From the IMG/VR virus record IMGVR_UViG_3300024261_000095, positions 1 through 34,069 of that record: a stretch of DNA of 34,069 bases. The stretch is one strand, 5' to 3'. The position numbers were made by a program, and so were the translations under genes. The DNA is from a virus. Under the pieces are notes generated by a model, which saw only the letters and a program-made list of their open reading frames with translations, did no database searches and had not been told where the DNA came from. Positions 7,831 through 32,328 of this stretch are shown one piece after another. Within the stretch, counting starts at the first letter, position 1. The number at the start of each line of letters is the position of its first letter.

Positions 7831-9213
7831 TTAACCGAATAGTGACTCTTTTAGAGCCTTACCCATACTCATAACATACCAACCTTCACCTGTATTCACT
7901 GCCCTACAGGCAAGTACAAGACTGTCGGGATAGTCGTCATGCTCATATGATTTAATCTTCATAATACCACTTTCTGTATACTCCCTTCTAAGATATGACA
8001 GTTGATATACCATTTTGTTAATATTCTTTAGTTTAATCTTGTGATTTTCAAACAATAATCTGAGATTCTTGTACATGTCTGCCTTTTCCTGCAATGAGAA
8101 CATTACACCTCTTGTAGGAATATCTCTTTCCCTGCACAAGTCTACCAGTCCACCACCTAGACCTGTCTCGTCTATGAACACGGTTTCCAAATGGAACTGT
8201 TGTACAAAGTCTCCTATTCTGCCTGCCACATCAACAACGTTACTTTGTGACTCTGCATATACTTCTTCAAGGTATACCACATCGTCCTCATCAACTCCTA
8301 CAACCGTGAACACTGTCTCATCACGACCTGTTCTGGCAACGTCCACACCCATATAGTATTTTACCCTGCCTTTAGGATGACCGTCAGTAAGTGCTTCCAT
8401 GATTAGTGAGTTTGGTATGAGTGCATCTCCTATATCTAGGAACTCACCCTCTACCTCTTGCACATACTCCTCCTTTGTAAGTCTCTTAATTTCCTCAATG
8501 AATACAGGATCTTCCGCAATCAGTGGATTCATCATGGACTTGACATGGAACTCTGTCCACATGCCTTCTGGATTGTTAGGTTTGCTGTTCATACACGCCT
8601 CATAGAAGTAACCTGACTTGGAGAACGGAGTTGACGTAAGCCATACCTTTGCCTGCGTAGCCATACCAGATGGAAGGAATGCCCTGAGTATGTCGGTCTT
8701 GATGAAGGAACATTCGTCCGCAATAATAACGTGAGGAGAATAACCTCTCAGTCCAACACCAGTCTCACCTGTTGCTCTTGTGATGATCTTGCTCATTCCA
8801 GTATTGTCTAGGAAGTTAATCCACAGTTCACTCTGTGTGTTTCTTACTATGTAGCCTTTGAGAAATGCATTGTTGATAACCAGACTTCTAATCCTGTCGA
8901 ACATGATGGTAGCCTGATTTTGTGTAGGTGCAGCGATAACTATTGTACACTCATGTTTTACCGTCTTTAACATTAGAGGTGCAAAGAATGCAAAGTGTAC
9001 TGCCTTGGCGGCAGTTGACATGGTTTTACCCACCTGTCTTCCACTTCTATACACTATGAAACGGTCTTTACAGTTAACATATTTTTGATTGTAATCAAAC
9101 AGTTTGTGTCCCAAAAATACTTCACTAAATAGACTGGGGTTCTTTGCACAGTCTGCAATGGTTTGCATGAACTCCTGTCTTTCTTCTACTTCCTCATTTG
9201 TTGGACGAGTCAT
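7831..9213 (-). CDS. terL: Terminase large subunit
   Basis: A 460-residue packaging motor. The N-terminal ATPase has Walker A GRQVGKT (58-64), Walker B VIIADE (162-167) and the coupling motif WLTSTPF (191-197). The C-terminal RNase H-like nuclease has D291 (MGVDVARTG), D348 (FIDET) and D430 (YPDS), the expected three acidic positions. It pumps DNA into the procapsid at the portal and cuts concatemers. Its length is normal. The ATG overlaps the end of the small-subunit gene by 20 nt, with AAGGGG a few bases upstream. The gene lies downstream of the tail and fibre genes rather than beside the capsid genes, and no portal was recognised next to it. Confidence 0.95.
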   Translation of the reverse strand: MTRPTNEEVEERQEFMQTIADCAKNPSLFSEVFLGHKLFDYNQKYVNCKDRFIVYRSGRQVGKTMSTAAKAVHFAFFAPLMLKTVKHECTIVIAAPTQNQATIMFDRIRSLVINNAFLKGYIVRNTQSELWINFLDNTGMSKIITRATGETGVGLRGYSPHVIIADECSFIKTDILRAFLPSGMATQAKVWLTSTPFSKSGYFYEACMNSKPNNPEGMWTEFHVKSMMNPLIAEDPVFIEEIKRLTKEEYVQEVEGEFLDIGDALIPNSLIMEALTDGHPKGRVKYYMGVDVARTGRDETVFTVVGVDEDDVVYLEEVYAESQSNVVDVAGRIGDFVQQFHLETVFIDETGLGGGLVDLCRERDIPTRGVMFSLQEKADMYKNLRLLFENHKIKLKNINKMVYQLSYLRREYTESGIMKIKSYEHDDYPDSLVLACRAVNTGEGWYVMSMGKALKESLFG

Positions 9214-9727
9214 CTATACCCCTTGCCTTTATCTGTCTAAATATTGTATTGATATCACCCTCCTTTGTAAACTCTTTTCTTTCTGTAACTGTAATTTTAT
9301 TGTTAAGGTCACTTAGTGATTTTACTAAATTCATCAGCACATTAATTTCACTTCTTCCATTCTTATCTGGTACACCACCATCAAACTTTGATTGTGTTGC
9401 TGTCATCATTACATTTTCAAATGTGATTTTAGTTACTATATCCATAATCTCTTTTAGGTCTTCTGGGTTTCTAGTATCTAACTCATTGATGAATGATATG
9501 TAATCTTTTCTAATAACACAAACTGCATCCTCTTCATATTTGGGACACTTGCCATTACCCCCTGCATCAATGCTTCTATATTTACATTGGTCACATAGTG
9601 CTGGTATGTCGGCTTCTCTAAAATGTTTTAAACTGTTGTGTGGTGATATTGTTTTTCTCTTATCCTCACTGACTACAAACTTGTTTCCAACACTCTTAAT
9701 TTTAAAAATATCGCCATTTTCTTCCAT
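9194..9727 (-). CDS. Probable terminase small subunit with Cys4 motif
   Basis: A 177-residue protein directly upstream of, and overlapping, the large terminase gene. It has an N-terminal cysteine cluster, C45-x2-C48-x12-C61-x8-C70, likely a metal site, followed by a mainly helical region (residues about 75-165) such as DLKEIMDIVTKITFENVMMT and INVLMNLVKSLSDLNNKIT. Small terminase subunits recognise the packaging site and regulate the large subunit. The call rests on position, size and helical make-up; a zinc-bearing N-terminus is less usual for that family, so another packaging-associated DNA-binding protein is possible. A TATA-like CTATAAATAA lies 24 nt upstream. Confidence 0.62.
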   Translation of the reverse strand: MEENGDIFKIKSVGNKFVVSEDKRKTISPHNSLKHFREADIPALCDQCKYRSIDAGGNGKCPKYEEDAVCVIRKDYISFINELDTRNPEDLKEIMDIVTKITFENVMMTATQSKFDGGVPDKNGRSEINVLMNLVKSLSDLNNKITVTERKEFTKEGDINTIFRQIKARGIDDSSNK

Positions 9728-16268: not shown

Positions 16269-17945
16269 TCATGTTCCTATCTCCTGCCAACCTTGTACTA
16301 CCATTGATGTTACTCCGTTGTAGATTTTAATGTTGTCAATTTTTAATGTTCCTTGATTTCCACTACTAATCCTTCCACCAAATCCATATACGTAATTCAA
16401 TCCTGTACAGTTTGAAGGAATTGTCACAGTGATTGGTGATAATCCAAATGGTGACGTCATGGCTTCATCATCAAAAAGTTCAAGAGTTGCCTGTGTTGAA
16501 GATATTCGTTTGAGCCTTCCCCACCAAGTCACTGTACTGCCATCTGAAATATGTGTTTCGTTTGCAATTTCACCTGTATTAGCAGTTCCATTTACAGCAT
16601 ATGTGTTAGAACCTGCTTGTACAACAATAGTACAAGGACTACCTGCCGCATCTCGGTCAACACTAAAGTACATTCCAATAAAATTCTTTGAACCTGAACT
16701 TGATAATACAACACCATCTGATAAACCAAATCCTCCAAACACATTATTACTATCATTAACTGATTCTCTAAAGAAAGTAGTTTTAAACGTCACCAACCAT
16801 TTTTCATCATCAACTTCTGTTATTGTTCTACCACCACCTGCTACATCTGCATTTCCAGAATCATCAAGATACCACCAACCATTTGCAGTATCTACATTTA
16901 CATTTGGAGCATCATCTGTAAAACTATCTTGTGTTGTAAAATCAGTTTCATATGCTATTGGTGTTGCAGGTACAAGTGAATACATCTTTCGTGTATCGGT
17001 TTCTTCAAATCTGCTTCCTACTTGGGCATTAGTTGGTTTGACACCTGTTGTGGTTGTTGATGGTGTGGTTATTGTTCCACCTGTTGCAGTAATACTTCCA
17101 TCATTTAAATAACTAATAATTACAACACCTTGACCACCAGCAAGTCCAATATTTGTAGATGTTGCTCCACCTGAACCTCCACCACCGCCACCAGAACCTG
17201 TGTTGGCTAAACCTGCTGTACCTCCACCGATACCGCCAAAACCACCATTACCACCTATTGATGAACCACCAATTCCTCCTACTGCTGACACTCTTCCACC
17301 ACCGCCACCAGCTGCATAAAATGTTAATGTACCATTAATTGAATCACTTTTACCATCTCCACCATTGCCTCCATCTTGTACATTTCCTGCTGTTCCTGTA
17401 CTTCCTGCACCTCCGCCACCTCCACCAGCGGCTGCTGTTGCTTTACTTCCACCTTGACCACCAGTGTTACCAAATCCAACTGCATTTGATGACCCCCCAG
17501 CAGAACCAGTATTATCTCCTGAACCTCCACCACCTGATGCACCTGTTCCACCAGCAGAACTAGTATTACCATTTCTACCACCTCCTCCACCACCAGATGA
17601 ATTTCCATTATATGATGATGAACCACCACCATTACCATTAGTTGCAGAAGCAACTTGAGACCCACCGTTTCCTATAACAACTGAGCCAGAAGATAATGTT
17701 TGATTAGTAAATTTTCTAAAATCTCCAGCTCCACCTCCACCACCTGAACCATAATTTCCTCCAGCTGCTCCACCACCAGAACCACCACCGCCAATTATTA
17801 AAACATCACCACTACCACTACCAGCAGTAATTGTAAAAGTACCAGTTGAATTGAATGTATGAACTTTATATCCTGTAGGTGTTATGGTGGTTTCGTCAGT
17901 TGATAATCCTTGAATCCTTCTACCTGCGTGATATGTAATAGCCAT
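16269..17945 (-). CDS. Gly-rich tail adhesin with lectin-like C-terminus
   Basis: A 558-residue protein starting MAITYHAGRRIQG. Residues about 28-290 form a glycine-rich adhesin: strands such as YKVHTFNSTGTFTIT and GDVLIIGGGGSGGG followed by long G-rich loops. The family is known from phage tail tips, where poly-Gly loops bind the receptor. The hinge AQVGSRFEETDTRKMYS is followed by a concanavalin-like domain (about 330-550) ending in IDNIKIYNGVTSM, homologous to the same domain in the adjacent fibre gene. No clear promoter is seen; it follows the upstream fibre gene by 16 nt. Confidence 0.78.
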   Translation of the reverse strand: MAITYHAGRRIQGLSTDETTITPTGYKVHTFNSTGTFTITAGSGSGDVLIIGGGGSGGGAAGGNYGSGGGGGAGDFRKFTNQTLSSGSVVIGNGGSQVASATNGNGGGSSSYNGNSSGGGGGGRNGNTSSAGGTGASGGGGSGDNTGSAGGSSNAVGFGNTGGQGGSKATAAAGGGGGGAGSTGTAGNVQDGGNGGDGKSDSINGTLTFYAAGGGGGRVSAVGGIGGSSIGGNGGFGGIGGGTAGLANTGSGGGGGGSGGATSTNIGLAGGQGVVIISYLNDGSITATGGTITTPSTTTTGVKPTNAQVGSRFEETDTRKMYSLVPATPIAYETDFTTQDSFTDDAPNVNVDTANGWWYLDDSGNADVAGGGRTITEVDDEKWLVTFKTTFFRESVNDSNNVFGGFGLSDGVVLSSSGSKNFIGMYFSVDRDAAGSPCTIVVQAGSNTYAVNGTANTGEIANETHISDGSTVTWWGRLKRISSTQATLELFDDEAMTSPFGLSPITVTIPSNCTGLNYVYGFGGRISSGNQGTLKIDNIKIYNGVTSMVVQGWQEIGT

Positions 17946-17961
17946 CAGTCAATCATTCCAC

Positions 17962-18792
17962 CTATGCAATTTGCACAACCTGTGAAGATCCGTTTTTCCA
18001 CAAAGTTATAAATAATCCATCATTATTGGTATCAATCTTTCTTACAAACATGTATGCAGTTGCGTTTTGTGTTGCGGCTGATGGCGTATAATTAACTGCT
18101 TGAACAGTACCGTCAATTTCTGGAGCCATTCCACCACCACTTGCTGCTACCCATGATGGTGCTGATGCAGAAGTTGCGAATGTTAGTACTTCTCCTGCTG
18201 GAGTTGTAGGTTTGGCTAATTTAACCCAGTTAGTTCCATTATAATAAAGAGTGTCACCTGTTGCTTGTCCACTTACACTTACGTCAGTTAAATCGTCAAA
18301 TGCTGCCACTGTGCTTGCTGCCTTCCATATGGCGTTGCCAGTTGATGTATCTTTAGTTAAAACATGTTCGTTAGTTGCAGCTGAAACTGCTGATAAGGAA
18401 TTGATTGCATTTTGTGCTGTTGTTGCTCCACTTCCACCTTGTGCGATTGCCACTGTTGACAGTTTGGCTGAAGCGATAGAACCTGCTAACTGTCCACTTG
18501 TAATTCCTGCCGTTGCTGATAATTCTGCTGTTGTAATTGTTCCAGTTAATCTTGCTAATGGCAATGTGCCAGATGTTATGTTAGATGCACTTGTCGTGTC
18601 AGTTGTTGCACTTGTAGCCAAACCTGTTATATTTGTATGTGGTACAGTGATTTTGGTAGTCGTATGAGTACCAATCATTGTATCCGTAATTGTATTAGTT
18701 CCTATAGTATGATCATCATTCCACTCATCTGAGCCTACTGGGGAAGTACCATCATCAGGTACGGTTACGACTTTAGTGTGGGTAATTGCCAT
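17962..18792 (-). CDS. Tail fibre protein with trimeric-repeat character
   Basis: A 276-residue Thr/Ala/Ser-rich protein. It begins MAITHTKVVTVPDDGTSPVG and continues with repeats such as NITSGTLPLARLTGTITT and AGITSGQLAGSIASAKL, then QGGSGATTAQNAINSLSAV, a motif common in phage tail fibres just before the distal domain. The C-terminal 60 residues look like a small globular tip. A TATA box lies 23 nt before the ATG, so it heads a fibre transcript that includes the Gly-rich adhesin downstream. Confidence 0.74.
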   Translation of the reverse strand: MAITHTKVVTVPDDGTSPVGSDEWNDDHTIGTNTITDTMIGTHTTTKITVPHTNITGLATSATTDTTSASNITSGTLPLARLTGTITTAELSATAGITSGQLAGSIASAKLSTVAIAQGGSGATTAQNAINSLSAVSAATNEHVLTKDTSTGNAIWKAASTVAAFDDLTDVSVSGQATGDTLYYNGTNWVKLAKPTTPAGEVLTFATSASAPSWVAASGGGMAPEIDGTVQAVNYTPSAATQNATAYMFVRKIDTNNDGLFITLWKNGSSQVVQIA

Positions 18793-18835: not shown

Positions 18836-18940
18836 TCATTCAAATATGCTTCCACATTTTACGCATACGGCATGTTTGTCGTATGTTTCTGCCACGAAAA
18901 ACTTCCAGTGACAGCATGGACATTCCTTGTTATAGTTCAT
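18836..18940 (-). CDS. Mini zinc ribbon (34 aa)
   Basis: A 34-codon frame starting MNYNKECPCCHWKFFVAE with CPCC and a second pair CVKC near the end, the minimal four-Cys layout of a zinc ribbon. Its ATG lies within the last codons of the halogenase gene (11-nt overlap), with a GGAGG sequence just upstream (spacing 5-6 nt), so it is probably translated with it. Its function is unknown; it may be a small partner or an independent DNA/RNA-binding peptide. Confidence 0.62.
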   Translation of the reverse strand: MNYNKECPCCHWKFFVAETYDKHAVCVKCGSIFE

Positions 18941-20480
18941 TATACACCTCCTTTTTTAGATATTCATGTAATGTAGGTGAGTCTTTTACCACATCATTCC
19001 AATACTTTTTACGGTCATCAAGTGCCTTTATTGATACCATGTATGGAGTATAATCAACTTCTTCTGATTTATTTCCATACCGTAATGTATTTTCACTTAG
19101 AGGGAAATATCCATATCCTGCACTAATACAATTAATTCCACTTTGTTCATCAAATCTAAAATTATACATCTTATCTATAATATGGTCTCTGAATCCATGA
19201 TGTTGTGTAGGAGATAAATCCCTTATTCCTTTCTCATATTCTCTATCGAGGTTATCCTTCCAATATGGAGTGTCATCTCTTTCTCCTAATGCGTAGTGCA
19301 TGGAAACAAATTCAGCCCAGTTATGGAAAGTGTTTCTACAAGTGTAATTATACACATCTCTATCCCATTGTGAGATATTATCTCTTTCAAACATTCTAGT
19401 AAGATATGACAAAAATTCATGTACTGTGTATAATCCATTACTTTCTAATGGCTCAATGAATCCTGCTGATAATCCTATTGCTACAACGTTCTTTACAAAT
19501 AACTTTTCGTGAATACCTATTTTCATTTTAATGTTGGTAAACTCACAATCATCTATGTCATGTTTATTTTTCTTTAGATGTTTCTTAAACTCTGCCAGTG
19601 CCTTTTCATCTGTTGTGTATTTATCAGAGTAAACATAACCTGTTCCTATCTTAGACCAAAGTGGTATATTCCATACCCACCCGTTTTTCAGGGCAGTTGC
19701 ATTGGTCACTCCTTCAAGTTGTTTCTCTTTATCTGTATATTCCACATGAGTTGCCCATGCCTTGTTGTTAGGTATAATATCACTATATGGTATGAACGGT
19801 TCACCCATTGTTTCTCCAAGTAATAGAGATTTGAATCCTGTACAATCTACGAATAAGTCTCCTGTGATAACATCACCATTATCCAATGTTAATGACTCTA
19901 TACCATCATCATTTGTTTTAATTTCCTTAACATTTGATTTGATATGATTTACTTTTGGTAGACAAATATTATCTCTTAACCATAGAGCAAACTTTGTTGC
20001 ATCAAAGTGAAATGCTGTACCCTTTTTAAAATCAAAAATACCTAATTCTTTACCTTTGTAGACTTTATTATTATTTACCATAGCCATTATTGGATAGTAT
20101 GAATCTGCATAATCTGTATTTGGTGTTTTTGGATTTATTAATTTCTTGAAATACCATAGATTGAATCTATTATCATCTATTGGTTCTGGCTGACTAAATG
20201 GGTATTCAACTCTACCTGAATTAATTTTATTGAAATTTGTAAATCGTATGGTAAATTTGTAACTTGCATCCGTATACTTCATGAAATCTTCATCTTTTAT
20301 TTTAACTAGAGACAACCATTGTCTAAATTGTACTATAGTTGATTCTCCTACTCCTACTGTTTTGATATTAGGTGATTCAATTAGGGTGATTTTCTTTTTA
20401 GGAAATAGTCTAACAAACGTTGTTGCTGTCATCCATCCTGCCGTACCTCCACCTACAATTACAATATTATTTACTCTCAA
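18930..20480 (-). CDS. Flavin-dependent tryptophan halogenase family protein
   Basis: A 516-residue protein with the complete family signature: FAD-binding GGGTAGW (10-16), the catalytic Lys in DASYKF (K75), the W-x-W-x-I-P motif (WVWNIP, 268-273), and the Glu and chloride-site sequence EPLESNG (343-349). These enzymes use FADH2, oxygen and halide to halogenate tryptophan or related aromatic substrates. Relatives occur in marine phages. The substrate cannot be told, and no flavin reductase is in the window, so the host would have to supply FADH2. The only available start is TTG at 20480; an upstream in-frame stop excludes an earlier one. It lies among tail-fibre genes, where it might modify a virion or host protein; that is inference. 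Confidence 0.92.
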   Translation of the reverse strand: MRVNNIVIVGGGTAGWMTATTFVRLFPKKKITLIESPNIKTVGVGESTIVQFRQWLSLVKIKDEDFMKYTDASYKFTIRFTNFNKINSGRVEYPFSQPEPIDDNRFNLWYFKKLINPKTPNTDYADSYYPIMAMVNNNKVYKGKELGIFDFKKGTAFHFDATKFALWLRDNICLPKVNHIKSNVKEIKTNDDGIESLTLDNGDVITGDLFVDCTGFKSLLLGETMGEPFIPYSDIIPNNKAWATHVEYTDKEKQLEGVTNATALKNGWVWNIPLWSKIGTGYVYSDKYTTDEKALAEFKKHLKKNKHDIDDCEFTNIKMKIGIHEKLFVKNVVAIGLSAGFIEPLESNGLYTVHEFLSYLTRMFERDNISQWDRDVYNYTCRNTFHNWAEFVSMHYALGERDDTPYWKDNLDREYEKGIRDLSPTQHHGFRDHIIDKMYNFRFDEQSGINCISAGYGYFPLSENTLRYGNKSEEVDYTPYMVSIKALDDRKKYWNDVVKDSPTLHEYLKKEVYNEL

Positions 20481-20524: not shown

Positions 20525-20875
20525 TTATGGCATTTCTGATTCTATCCAAGATAGATTTTCTTCATTCCATGAATATTGTTTACCATCATCTGGATAAGGT
20601 GTTGGTGGTTCATATAAACATGATTCTTCATTTAATATCCACGATGGGAACGGTGAATCATCAATAAATGCATCTCTAATTTTATCATAACCCATTCCTA
20701 TCCCTGCAAAATTCTTTCTAAGTGGGATGCCACCTTCTCTTTTATTAACTCCTCCGTATGTATTATAGCTTGTTTGAATCCATTGTGTTGAATTATCCAA
20801 AGTATCTATAAATTCCTGTTCAGCAACTATTACTCTAGTTACTATTCCATTAATTACTTCTGCGAAATGACTCAT
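20525..20875 (-). CDS. Marine-phage-type tail-region protein
   Basis: A 116-residue protein starting MSHFAEVINGIVTRVIVAEQ, with TSYNTYGGVN, GGIPLRKNFAGIGMGYD, FPSWILNEESCLYEPP and YSWNEENLSW. This series of motifs is recognisable from a small protein encoded beside tail-fibre genes in many marine phages; its molecular role is not established. The start at 20875 overlaps the stop of the Gly-rich adhesin gene by ATGA; an upstream extension to 20935 is unlikely. Its neighbours, an adhesin and the halogenase, suggest an exchanged tail cassette. Confidence 0.78.
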   Translation of the reverse strand: MSHFAEVINGIVTRVIVAEQEFIDTLDNSTQWIQTSYNTYGGVNKREGGIPLRKNFAGIGMGYDKIRDAFIDDSPFPSWILNEESCLYEPPTPYPDDGKQYSWNEENLSWIESEMP

Positions 20876-21954
20876 ACTGCGTGTCTCACTATCATTACAC
20901 CGCTTCCACCAGAACCTCCTGTTGTGGTATACCAAGCTCCACTTCCTCCTCCTCCTCCAGTATTTGCTCCTCCAGCTCCTCCATTTTGGTTATATTGGGC
21001 GGTACCATGAGCAGCAGTATTAGATGTATTTCCTCCACTATTTCTTCCATTTCCACCTGTTTTTAAAGTTGTACTATTATGTGCTCCTCCAGCTCCTCCG
21101 CCTCCGTTTCCACCGTTTGAACCATGAGATCCAACATCATGACCACTTCCTCCACCGCCTCCTCCATAATGGTATGTTGATGGGAATGATGATATTTCTA
21201 CTCCTACTGCGGCTGTTTGAATTACACCTTTTGCTGTATTAACACCTATACCTCCAGCTCCTCCTCCACTTCCTCCACTCCAATGCATAGTTCCATATGA
21301 TGAAGATCCTCCATTATGTCCACCATGAGCCGTACCTGTAACACCTGCTGGGAATGTTGGAGATGTTCCTGTACCTCCAACATAAGTTCCAGTTATCCAT
21401 CCCATAAATCCACCTCCACCGTTTGCACCATTCCCACCTATATGAGAACCATAACTGGGTGCGGCTGAAGAATGATTTCCACCACCGCCTCCTCCGCCTC
21501 CAGTTGCGTTTATCTTTGTAGGTGTATGATTTATTTCAAATGTTGAAGGATTTCCAGTTTGACTATTACCAGCTGTGGTTGCATATGCACCTCCACCACC
21601 TACTATAACCTGATACCCAGTAGAATTACTTTCAGCCAATGTAAATGAATTTGATTTTAATATTCCACCTGCTCCGCCACCTCCTCCGCCACCTCCTAAT
21701 TTCTGTGTTCCTCCTCCTCCACCTACTGCTAACACCTCAACATCTACATCCCCTCCTGTAACTATAACATATCCACTAGATAGAAATTCTAAATATCTAT
21801 ATCCACCTGAATTTGCAGTATCTATAACTGAACTTCCTGTGTATGTTACTACTCCAGCTCCTCCACCAGCAGCTCCAACAAATCCAACATTGAACAAATC
21901 CATTGGTTTTTTTAGAATATGATTCTTTTTAATTAAACTGTCTCTATGGGACAT
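20872..21954 (-). CDS. Second Gly-rich tail adhesin
   Basis: A 360-residue protein, strongly Gly/Ser/Thr/His-rich. After a short polar N-terminus it repeats strands such as YRYLEFLSSGYVIVTGGDVD and VEVLAVGGGGGTQ, separated by loops of G-G-G-G. The C-terminus is GSGVMIVRHAV. The arrangement matches phage glycine-rich adhesins that determine receptor choice. It differs from the other Gly-rich protein in lacking a lectin-like domain. The ATG at 21954 follows the previous stop by a few bases; an internal Met (PMDLFNVGF) is another possible start. Confidence 0.78.
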   Translation of the reverse strand: MSHRDSLIKKNHILKKPMDLFNVGFVGAAGGGAGVVTYTGSSVIDTANSGGYRYLEFLSSGYVIVTGGDVDVEVLAVGGGGGTQKLGGGGGGGGAGGILKSNSFTLAESNSTGYQVIVGGGGAYATTAGNSQTGNPSTFEINHTPTKINATGGGGGGGGNHSSAAPSYGSHIGGNGANGGGGFMGWITGTYVGGTGTSPTFPAGVTGTAHGGHNGGSSSYGTMHWSGGSGGGAGGIGVNTAKGVIQTAAVGVEISSFPSTYHYGGGGGGSGHDVGSHGSNGGNGGGGAGGAHNSTTLKTGGNGRNSGGNTSNTAAHGTAQYNQNGGAGGANTGGGGGSGAWYTTTGGSGGSGVMIVRHAV

Positions 21955-21958
21955 AAGG

Positions 21959-23062
21959 TCATGCCTCTACTGCGTATGCGGCTACTATGTCTGTCTCGGC
22001 TGTTCCGAAACAGGTTAAGGTTAGGATTGCTGTCTTACTTGCGGCAATATCTGTAGGTGCTGTTCCAACTATTTTCCAACTTGCGTTTAATGTTAGGTTT
22101 TGTAATGTTGCATCATTTACCAATCTGATTGTTTTTGAACGACCAACTGCTTTGTTACTAGAAGTGTTAAATGTTATTGCGGTACTTCCTGATAAAGCCC
22201 AACTTTCTAACTGGTCTGTGTTAAAGTCCAATGTTCTAGCACCTGATACACTTGCGGTTGATGTTAAATCATGTACTAAGTTTTGAATGTTATCTATATT
22301 ATTTCCTGCTACATCTACTGCTGCTGTGGTGACTGTTCCTGTAAATGTAGGACTAGCTAGTGGAGATTTTAATGCTAAATCTGATACAAGTGAAACTACT
22401 CCAGCTTGTGGTAATCCAGTACATGATGTTAATGTTCCTGCTGAAGGTGTTCCAATATCAGGTGTTGTTAAAGTTAATCCTGCTATAGTTGCATTGGTTG
22501 ATCCTGATGCTATTGATGTACTACCTATTGTTGGAGCTGCATAAGGTGTTGCTGTTGCTCCATCTGCTCCAAATTCATACCAGTAATTACCTCTTCTAAT
22601 GAGCATAATTGGTACTCCGTCATGGACTAGTGTAGCCCCACCACTTAGTTGTGTTTTAATATGTCCATTTGCTGATGGTGTTATATCTGATATTGTTATT
22701 GTATCCCCTGCCGTTCCTTTGTACAGATATACTATGTCATTTTCATTGGTATCAGTAATGTCAATTTTTACTATTGCATCTGTTGTAGTGACACCTTCAC
22801 ATTCTACTTCAATGAGTGTTGATTGTTTGGAATAAGTGTTACCGTCATCTTCTACAAATGTTGTAGTGTCATCTTTTGTGTATATTACTCCACTTGAATC
22901 TAACGTGGCTGTGATTTTAGTAAAACCTAATATTGCTTGGTCATGAGGATCTTGGTTCCAATGACTTGTTCTTACTGGTACACTGGTGTCATCTGGATAT
23001 GTTGTTTCATTGACACGGTTTTGATTACGACCATATGCTATTCTTTTACCATTAGAAACCAT
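21959..23062 (-). CDS. Tail fibre protein
   Basis: A 367-residue protein starting MVSNGKRIAYGRNQNRVNET. The N-terminal part includes PDDTSVPVRTSHWNQDPHDQ, related in sense to the N-terminus of the 276-residue fibre (PDDGTSPVGSDEWNDDH), suggesting a shared attachment domain. The middle is beta-rich and the distal part carries SPLASPTFTGTVTTAAVDV, a common tail-fibre motif before the tip, followed by a globular domain (about 265-367). It follows a 41-residue gene by one base. A receptor-binding or fibre-shaft role is inferred. Confidence 0.74.
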   Translation of the reverse strand: MVSNGKRIAYGRNQNRVNETTYPDDTSVPVRTSHWNQDPHDQAILGFTKITATLDSSGVIYTKDDTTTFVEDDGNTYSKQSTLIEVECEGVTTTDAIVKIDITDTNENDIVYLYKGTAGDTITISDITPSANGHIKTQLSGGATLVHDGVPIMLIRRGNYWYEFGADGATATPYAAPTIGSTSIASGSTNATIAGLTLTTPDIGTPSAGTLTSCTGLPQAGVVSLVSDLALKSPLASPTFTGTVTTAAVDVAGNNIDNIQNLVHDLTSTASVSGARTLDFNTDQLESWALSGSTAITFNTSSNKAVGRSKTIRLVNDATLQNLTLNASWKIVGTAPTDIAASKTAILTLTCFGTAETDIVAAYAVEA

Positions 23063-31686: not shown

Positions 31687-32328
31687 CTACGGTATCACGA
31701 ATACTTCTCGTCTATTTGACACACATAAATCTATGTCCTCTTGCCAAAATCTTTTACTTTCACTAGGAGATACACTTCCACCACTTGGAATCTCATCCAT
31801 GCGGAATGATGTATTCATGACTTCTATTGCTGTCATTTTAATTACTGCATCTGCAATATCCAATGGTATAACAGTATCACCTGCAAAATTATCACCACCA
31901 TAACGATAAGTAACCCTGACCCTATTTTTTCTTAGAATTGTAAACAGATATCCTCTTAAGTGTAACGTTCCCCTCTCATACTCACAGTTATACCATTGAT
32001 TTTGACCTACTACATTTTCCCATGTATCTGATTCTCCCTTCCAAACTTCTATCTTGTCACCTTCTGCACCGTCAAGAACGTGTATATTTCTATGTTGTAA
32101 GAATATTGGAGTACCCCATCCGAATGTATATAGTAAAGGTAAATCGTGAACTTCTCTTGTAATTGTCTTTGTTTTCCAAGTATGACCTATTCTTCTGTCT
32201 AACTCCTCTTCTTTTCTGGCAATTATCTTACGTACCATTTCCTTGTTTGGAGTGGTTGTTGAAGTAATAGGAACTCTTAGGAAATCACTAATATCTCCAA
32301 CTGAACAATATGTGGTGGTAGTAACCAT
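31687..32328 (-). CDS. Head-tail connector protein
   Basis: A 213-residue protein. The N-terminal helices (SVGDISDFLRVPI, KEMVRKIIARKEEELDRRIG) match the start of gp6/gp15-type connector proteins, which form a ring beneath the portal. A central beta domain (about 60-150, including NQWYNCEYERGTLHLRG and RVRVTYRYGGD) and C-terminal helices (IPLDIADAVIKMTAIEVM) complete it. It follows small virion genes and precedes the neck protein. A TATA box is 23 nt upstream. Confidence 0.78.
   Translation of the reverse strand: MVTTTTYCSVGDISDFLRVPITSTTTPNKEMVRKIIARKEEELDRRIGHTWKTKTITREVHDLPLLYTFGWGTPIFLQHRNIHVLDGAEGDKIEVWKGESDTWENVVGQNQWYNCEYERGTLHLRGYLFTILRKNRVRVTYRYGGDNFAGDTVIPLDIADAVIKMTAIEVMNTSFRMDEIPSGGSVSPSESKRFWQEDIDLCVSNRREVFVIP

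Follow-up and report, generated by a model that had tools for sequence, protein, structure and literature searches.

Phage genes annotated as tryptophan halogenases have been counted among the auxiliary metabolic genes without a known purpose for about fifteen years. In this enzyme family FADH2 and O2 form a flavin hydroperoxide, which oxidises halide, and the resulting hypohalous acid is relayed to a lysine residue, numbered K75 in the enzyme described here. For VirX1, a halogenase of cyanophage Syn10 that is used in biocatalysis, we know of no published natural substrate. Experimental work established VirX1 as an active, trimeric halogenase with a preference for iodide, and its open active site accepts large substrates and has a broad scope of small molecules in vitro (PMC8407142). 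The published suggestions for viral halogenases are protection of the host (PMC2984593) or antibiotics. The enzyme described here belongs to a known family; what is new is that it occurs in an archaeal virus and is linked to an adhesin. In the open-access literature we found neither a report of a halogenase in an archaeal virus, of which the present enzyme would be the first, nor a paper tying viral halogenases to adhesins.

The stretch of DNA analysed here, referred to as the window, is a linear IMG/VR record of 34,069 bp. Positions 18930 to 20480 of its minus strand encode a VirX1-type flavin-dependent halogenase of 516 amino acids, which scores 341 bits against the Pfam family Trp_halogenase (PF04820, cut-off 21 bits) and 486 bits against phrog_2928. 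The gene starts with TTG just 3' of a ribosome-binding site, and the start position is common to its relatives, with TTG in L002 and L003 and ATG in L004 and L006. In a preliminary description the enzyme had been called catalytically intact on the grounds of Lys75, a W-x-W-x-I-P motif and an E-S-N-G site. All of these were found, namely K75, WVWNIP at residue 268 (W268-V-W270-N-I-P273) and EPLESNG at residue 343. The FAD-binding GxGxxG motif is represented by GGGTAGW at residues 10-16, and its glycines are invariant among 23 viral homologues. The same homologues share K75, W268, W270, P273, E346 and S347 without exception, and the active-site Glu-Ser segment E343PLE346S347NG349 is invariant in them apart from residue 348. 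The dN/dS values against homologues, 0.08-0.16, indicate that the gene is selectively maintained. Family scores, motifs and dN/dS together ruled out a chance ORF at 18930-20480, and the gene almost certainly encodes a working halogenase.

Among the entries of the PDB, VirX1 (6QGM) was the best match by sequence (E 7e-103) and also by fold: the AlphaFold2 model of the window halogenase (pLDDT 90) superimposed on it with a TM score of 0.93 and an rmsd of 2.2 Å, with 37% identity in the structural alignment. For PrnA, RebH, PyrH and Thal the TM scores were 0.81-0.85 and the identities 25-29%. The preliminary description had regarded the gene as one known from cyanophages and had proposed a phylogeny, which agreed with it. 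In the maximum-likelihood tree the window enzyme groups with those of L002, L003 and L004 (support 96/99) and then with that of L006 (100/100), and all of them nest in a viral clade of 46 rows (100/100) which also includes the VirX1 copy of Syn9. Bacterial halogenases lie outside this clade with the sole exception of L117 (JABDFK010000005.1), a contig of a Deltaproteobacteria MAG. A scan of genome contigs with the halogenase returned bacterial records only, with L117 matching at 47%; this is probably a phage contig that was binned with the MAG. In the phage collection, halogenase matches of low rank also came from Campylobacter phages (four records) and human-fecal phages (two records, MT837902 and MT835646).

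The Trp-binding motif of the PrnA type (YYETFDYEFKNFW), in which we take the C-terminal residues Tyr-Tyr, Glu and Phe/Trp to bind the substrate, was absent from the window halogenase and its viral relatives and present in the PrnA-like bacterial enzyme L192. For this reason the name "tryptophan halogenase" should not be read as a statement about the substrate, and in this point the preliminary description was not upheld, since in L003 and L007 the adjacent Gly-rich protein does not contain a single Trp either. The source of reduced FAD had been described as unclear, and as far as can be seen it is not viral: a flavin reductase (PF01613) was found neither in the window nor in 11 other halogenase-bearing viral records (12 in total), so that flavin reduction by the host would serve.

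The virus itself is, by its genes and promoters, a marine archaeal tailed virus, and its host can be assigned to the archaeal domain only. The terminase large subunit (TerL; 7831-9213, minus strand; phrog_2, E 1e-45), which served as a backbone marker, has its best full-length match among isolates in Halogranum tailed virus 1 (HGTV-1) and matches the TerL of the close relative G002 at 59%. A structural protein of 213 amino acids (31687-32328, minus strand) matches archaeal tailed viruses only, namely HCTV-1, HVTV-1, HCTV-5 and a Methanomassiliicoccales virus. Capsid and portal of G002 match only haloarchaeal viruses of the HCTV/HVTV type, and genes for MCM were present in G002 and G019 and one for Rad51/RadA in G019; a search of G002, G019 and G022 for tRNAs found none. 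The archaeal-type promoters noted earlier were recovered as TTTAWA boxes at -32 to -27 from the start codons in 11 of the 32 window genes, with about 0.8 expected from neighbouring positions (p ~3e-9). Sites resembling sigma-70 promoters were no commoner in the window than in shuffles. The TATA peak, together with mostly missing ribosome-binding sites, is typical of leaderless transcripts in archaea and was seen across the minus-strand genes; genes of the structural module without a TATA box look operonic. Adjoining TerL, an ORF at 9194-9727 (minus strand) that is conserved in G002 matches weakly the C-terminal part of a queuine tRNA-ribosyltransferase (phrog_887).

The halogenase gene had been placed in a tail-fibre region next to a marine-phage-type protein and a Gly-rich adhesin, and the annotation of the flanking genes, all on the minus strand, bears this out, with fibre-like genes on both sides. 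Upstream follows a 116-aa protein ("MSHFAE...", 20525-20875) of family phrog_7759 (E 1.5e-29), and then a Gly-rich tail-tip or adhesin-like protein of 360 aa with 31% Gly (20872-21954; phrog_2295, 1.8e-20). The latter consists of a conserved N-terminal anchor (MSHRDS..KPMD..N.GFVGAAGG) and a variable Gly-rich C-terminal module, which ends in IVRHAV. It scores 23.6 bits against PF21722, just under the cut-off of 24.3, and its low-confidence model gave weak Foldseek matches to the Bxb1 tail tip and the Pam3 fibre. Further upstream a fibre-like protein of 367 aa is encoded (21959-23062), whose C-terminal domain also precedes the Gly-rich gene in L002, L003, L004 and L007, at 58-61% identity. Downstream of the halogenase gene, a 34-aa zinc-ribbon-like mini-protein with a CxxC...CxxC pattern (18836-18940) overlaps the halogenase stop codon, has a ribosome-binding site (AAGGAGGTGTATAATG) and is translationally coupled to the halogenase. 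L002 and L006 have the same mini-protein after their halogenase, whereas none was found there in L003 or L004. A fibre-like protein of 276 aa (17962-18792), with a homolog at the same place in L002, and a second Gly-rich protein of 558 aa (16269-17945; PF21722, E 6e-11; phrog_2295) complete the region.

Members of phrog_7759 lie upstream of halogenases in marine phages. Of the 77 viral halogenase loci, 25 contain one within five genes, and at this distance it invariably lies upstream. In the closest relatives of the window, the Gly-rich gene and the halogenase have no such gene between them, and the 116-residue gene is consequently no obligatory part of the cassette.

The halogenase is also linked to the Gly-rich gene. 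Five records of the group (the window, L002, L003, L004 and L007) have the halogenase downstream of a Gly-rich tail-tip gene; the two are adjacent in the latter four and separated by the phrog_7759 gene in the window. The Gly-rich genes of the relatives begin with the same anchor (truncated in L003 and L007) and end in IRH[TV]. The window and L002 have this unit among their fibre genes, whereas L003 and L004 carry it between the head genes and the tail genes. In L006, which has another TerL type, a Gly-rich gene was found with a halogenase of 78% identity and the same zinc-ribbon mini-protein. Two genome positions and the L006 backbone indicate that the cassette moves between positions and backbones. 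Of what had been put forward, transfer as a cassette is supported, and the co-occurrence of halogenase and adhesin was found in five group records; the halogenase very probably belongs to an exchangeable, adhesin-linked cassette. In L263, L269, L270, L272 and L274 the same anchor carries other C-termini, and where the contig continues no halogenase follows. Likewise, no halogenase was found in at least 30 related records, many of them fragments, among which are records of 64.6 and 62.8 kb. A transfer across domains through L006 was considered and is unproven; its TerL type and fibre pool are common to viruses with the archaeal anchor. Since L006-type viruses share fibre modules with the window group, L006 alone does not prove a transfer between domains.

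A corresponding linkage exists in phages. Homologs of the Gly-rich tail-tip gene gp38 of Syn9 were detected in 20 of 50,697 phage records, and all 20 carry a halogenase 0.5-3.3 kb downstream on the same strand. The comparison set comprised at least 438 records of T4-like cyanophages, and 37 records had a near full-length halogenase. Counted by record, this co-occurrence has a hypergeometric probability of 9e-25; counted by phage (about 10, with totals taken to be 14 and 100), the value is 6e-11. The true significance is weaker than either value because the records are not independent. The VirX1 gene itself lies in an island of gp37-gp38-gp39-gp40-halogenase-VirX1. Two isolates of cyanophage S-RIM44 differ by adhesin and halogenases jointly: Np_42_0711 carries three genes of gp38 size, the middle one of which matches gp38, and two halogenases after a long fibre gene, whereas W2_10_0709 has neither adhesin nor halogenases at that locus. 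One viral record, L010 / G005 (152.8 kb), has four genes for halogenases close to several for Gly-rich tips.

In 77 dereplicated halogenase loci from IMG/VR, 2OG-Fe(II) oxygenases (PF13640, PF13759) were enriched near the halogenase; they made up 155 of 428 genes at a distance of 1-3 genes and 39 of 271 at a distance of 6-9 (p 1.6e-10) and were present within five genes in 64 loci. A Gly-rich gene was present within five genes in only 39 of the 77 loci, and the distance trend of Gly-rich genes around these halogenases was insignificant (p 0.19). Two families, phrog_7084 and phrog_17480 (~240 aa, e.g., L085:3897-4637 and L103:5271-5999), were enriched directly beside halogenases, in 20 and 17 of the 77 loci, and are possible partner proteins. 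The fibre genes of G002 (L035:13491-14866) include a 2OG-Fe(II) oxygenase (PF13640) and a phrog_17480 protein; both families flank phage halogenases.

The preliminary description had proposed halogenated tryptophan in a virion or host surface protein. Of this proposal the virion protein is now better supported on account of the linkage; the tryptophan is not supported, given the missing motif and the Trp-less tips. Trp of the adjacent Gly-rich protein as an obligatory target was ruled out: the proteins of L003 and L007 lack Trp altogether, and Gly-rich proteins linked to a halogenase show no enrichment of it (p 0.19). The linked proteins contain 1.8-3.9% His, and archaeal ones without the linkage 0-0.9% (p 0.0002 on all); this enrichment is a post hoc result out of 12 residue tests, confounded by virus group, and serves as a lead only. 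For an aromatic residue just before a C-terminal GGSG in the linked archaeal tips the cases were too few. The Gly-rich loops of cyanophage tips carry Tyr and His, and so do the archaeal tips. The virion proteome of S-SZBM1, with 30 confirmed proteins, includes SSZBM1_51 to _54 and contains neither the gp38-like tip proteins _48 and _49 nor the halogenase _46 (PMC9146016). A protein that is low in copy number, rich in Gly or modified would be expected to be missing as well; the proteome fits an enzyme located outside the virion and is silent on modification.

The best explanation for these observations, which we hold with slightly less than even confidence, is an exchangeable cassette of adhesin and tailoring enzyme, in which the halogenase would modify the tail-tip protein. 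A marine archaeal tailed virus would have acquired a Gly-rich tip on a conserved virion anchor together with a VirX1-type halogenase and, in some cases, the zinc-ribbon mini-protein. With host-made FADH2, O2 and halide the enzyme would form a hypohalite-lysine intermediate at K75 and most likely halogenate electron-rich side chains exposed on the tip protein (Tyr, His or Trp). This would take place in the infected cell during assembly and may alter receptor binding or stability. We infer side-chain halogenation of the tip because the tip moves with the enzyme and the tips carry Tyr and His. The activity, the residue type and the effect on attachment are likewise inferred, and that the virion adhesin is the substrate seems a little short of an even chance.

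The main rival, which we consider possible and rather unlikely, is hitchhiking with tail fibres: the halogenase would be swapped with adhesins as a linked block in recombination-prone fibre regions, and its real substrate would be found elsewhere in the cell. The exchanged blocks are indeed large and comprise many genes, and some halogenases sit elsewhere in the genome, away from fibres, as in S-B64 beside SbcCD genes and in S-MbCM6 beside psbA. However, the archaeal unit consists of only two to four genes, which are kept together at two positions and in two virus backbones, and every gp38 phage keeps its halogenase within about 3 kb.

Less probable is an auxiliary metabolic gene whose product, a halogenated small molecule, would serve as a signal or shield the host during infection. 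The broad in vitro scope of VirX1 would suit this role (PMC8407142), which was proposed for the cyanophage prnA and termed speculative by its authors (PMC2984593). Nevertheless, biosynthetic partner genes are missing, the neighbors being fibre genes and, in the tail-tip islands, 2OG oxygenases, and neither the PrnA-type motif for binding free Trp nor a flavin reductase (PF01613, 12 records) was detected. Still less probable is an action on the host surface, where the enzyme would alter an envelope protein, glycan or lipid and thereby block, for instance, superinfection or re-adsorption of progeny. That the enzyme is exchanged along with a receptor-binding gene would likewise be consistent with its being adapted to the receptor instead of the adhesin. 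Yet no N-terminal signal peptide or membrane segment was noticed in the halogenase, which starts at the FAD-binding strand, and surface molecules would be accessible to an FADH2-dependent enzyme in the cytoplasm only until they are exported. A flavoprotein that no longer halogenates, i.e., an oxidase or plain monooxygenase, is very improbable: the window's own clade is known from sequence and not from activity, but the halogenase-specific residues are all invariant, WxWxIP is retained, purifying selection is strong, and the closest characterized relative, VirX1, is an active halogenase.

If tip modification by the halogenase is correct, enzymatic halogenation of a virus attachment protein represents a new kind of virion modification. 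The findings suggest that viruses of bacteria and archaea may chemically tune their attachment proteins. In its most general form, which we put forward more tentatively than the reading for the window, tailed viruses of both domains would halogenate and, with the linked 2OG-Fe(II) oxygenases, hydroxylate Gly-rich tips, and tip and enzyme would be exchanged as one host-range cassette. The adhesin linkage makes the open question of the halogenases' purpose testable on cultured cyanophages, and the halogenase could serve as a marker for exchangeable attachment cassettes.

Compared with known systems, the virus is homologous to HCTV-1, HCTV-5, HVTV-1 and HGTV-1 in major capsid, portal, 213-aa structural protein and TerL. 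It differs from these haloarchaeal viruses in that the identities are 22-33% and the window group comprises marine relatives with about 36% GC; at the search sensitivity used, no halogenase match was obtained in the four viruses. With PrnA, RebH, PyrH and Thal the window enzyme shares PF04820, GGGTAGW, K75, WxWxIP and E346-S347, but it has neither the PrnA-type substrate motif nor a biosynthetic cluster. The likeness to VirX1 is closer and includes the same catalytic residues, the same viral clade and a gene position beside Gly-rich tail-tip genes. The differences are the carrier, a cyanophage in one case and an archaeal virus in the other, and the neighborhood, since the window halogenase has no adjoining second halogenase or oxygenase. 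The Gly-rich tip genes gp38/gp39 of Syn9 and Syn10 likewise closely precede a VirX1-type halogenase encoded on the same strand. Their N-terminal virion-docking part is another one, whereas the archaeal tips use the MSHRDS...GFVGAAGG anchor, so the resemblance to the window protein lies in Gly-rich character and gene position and not in a shared docking domain.
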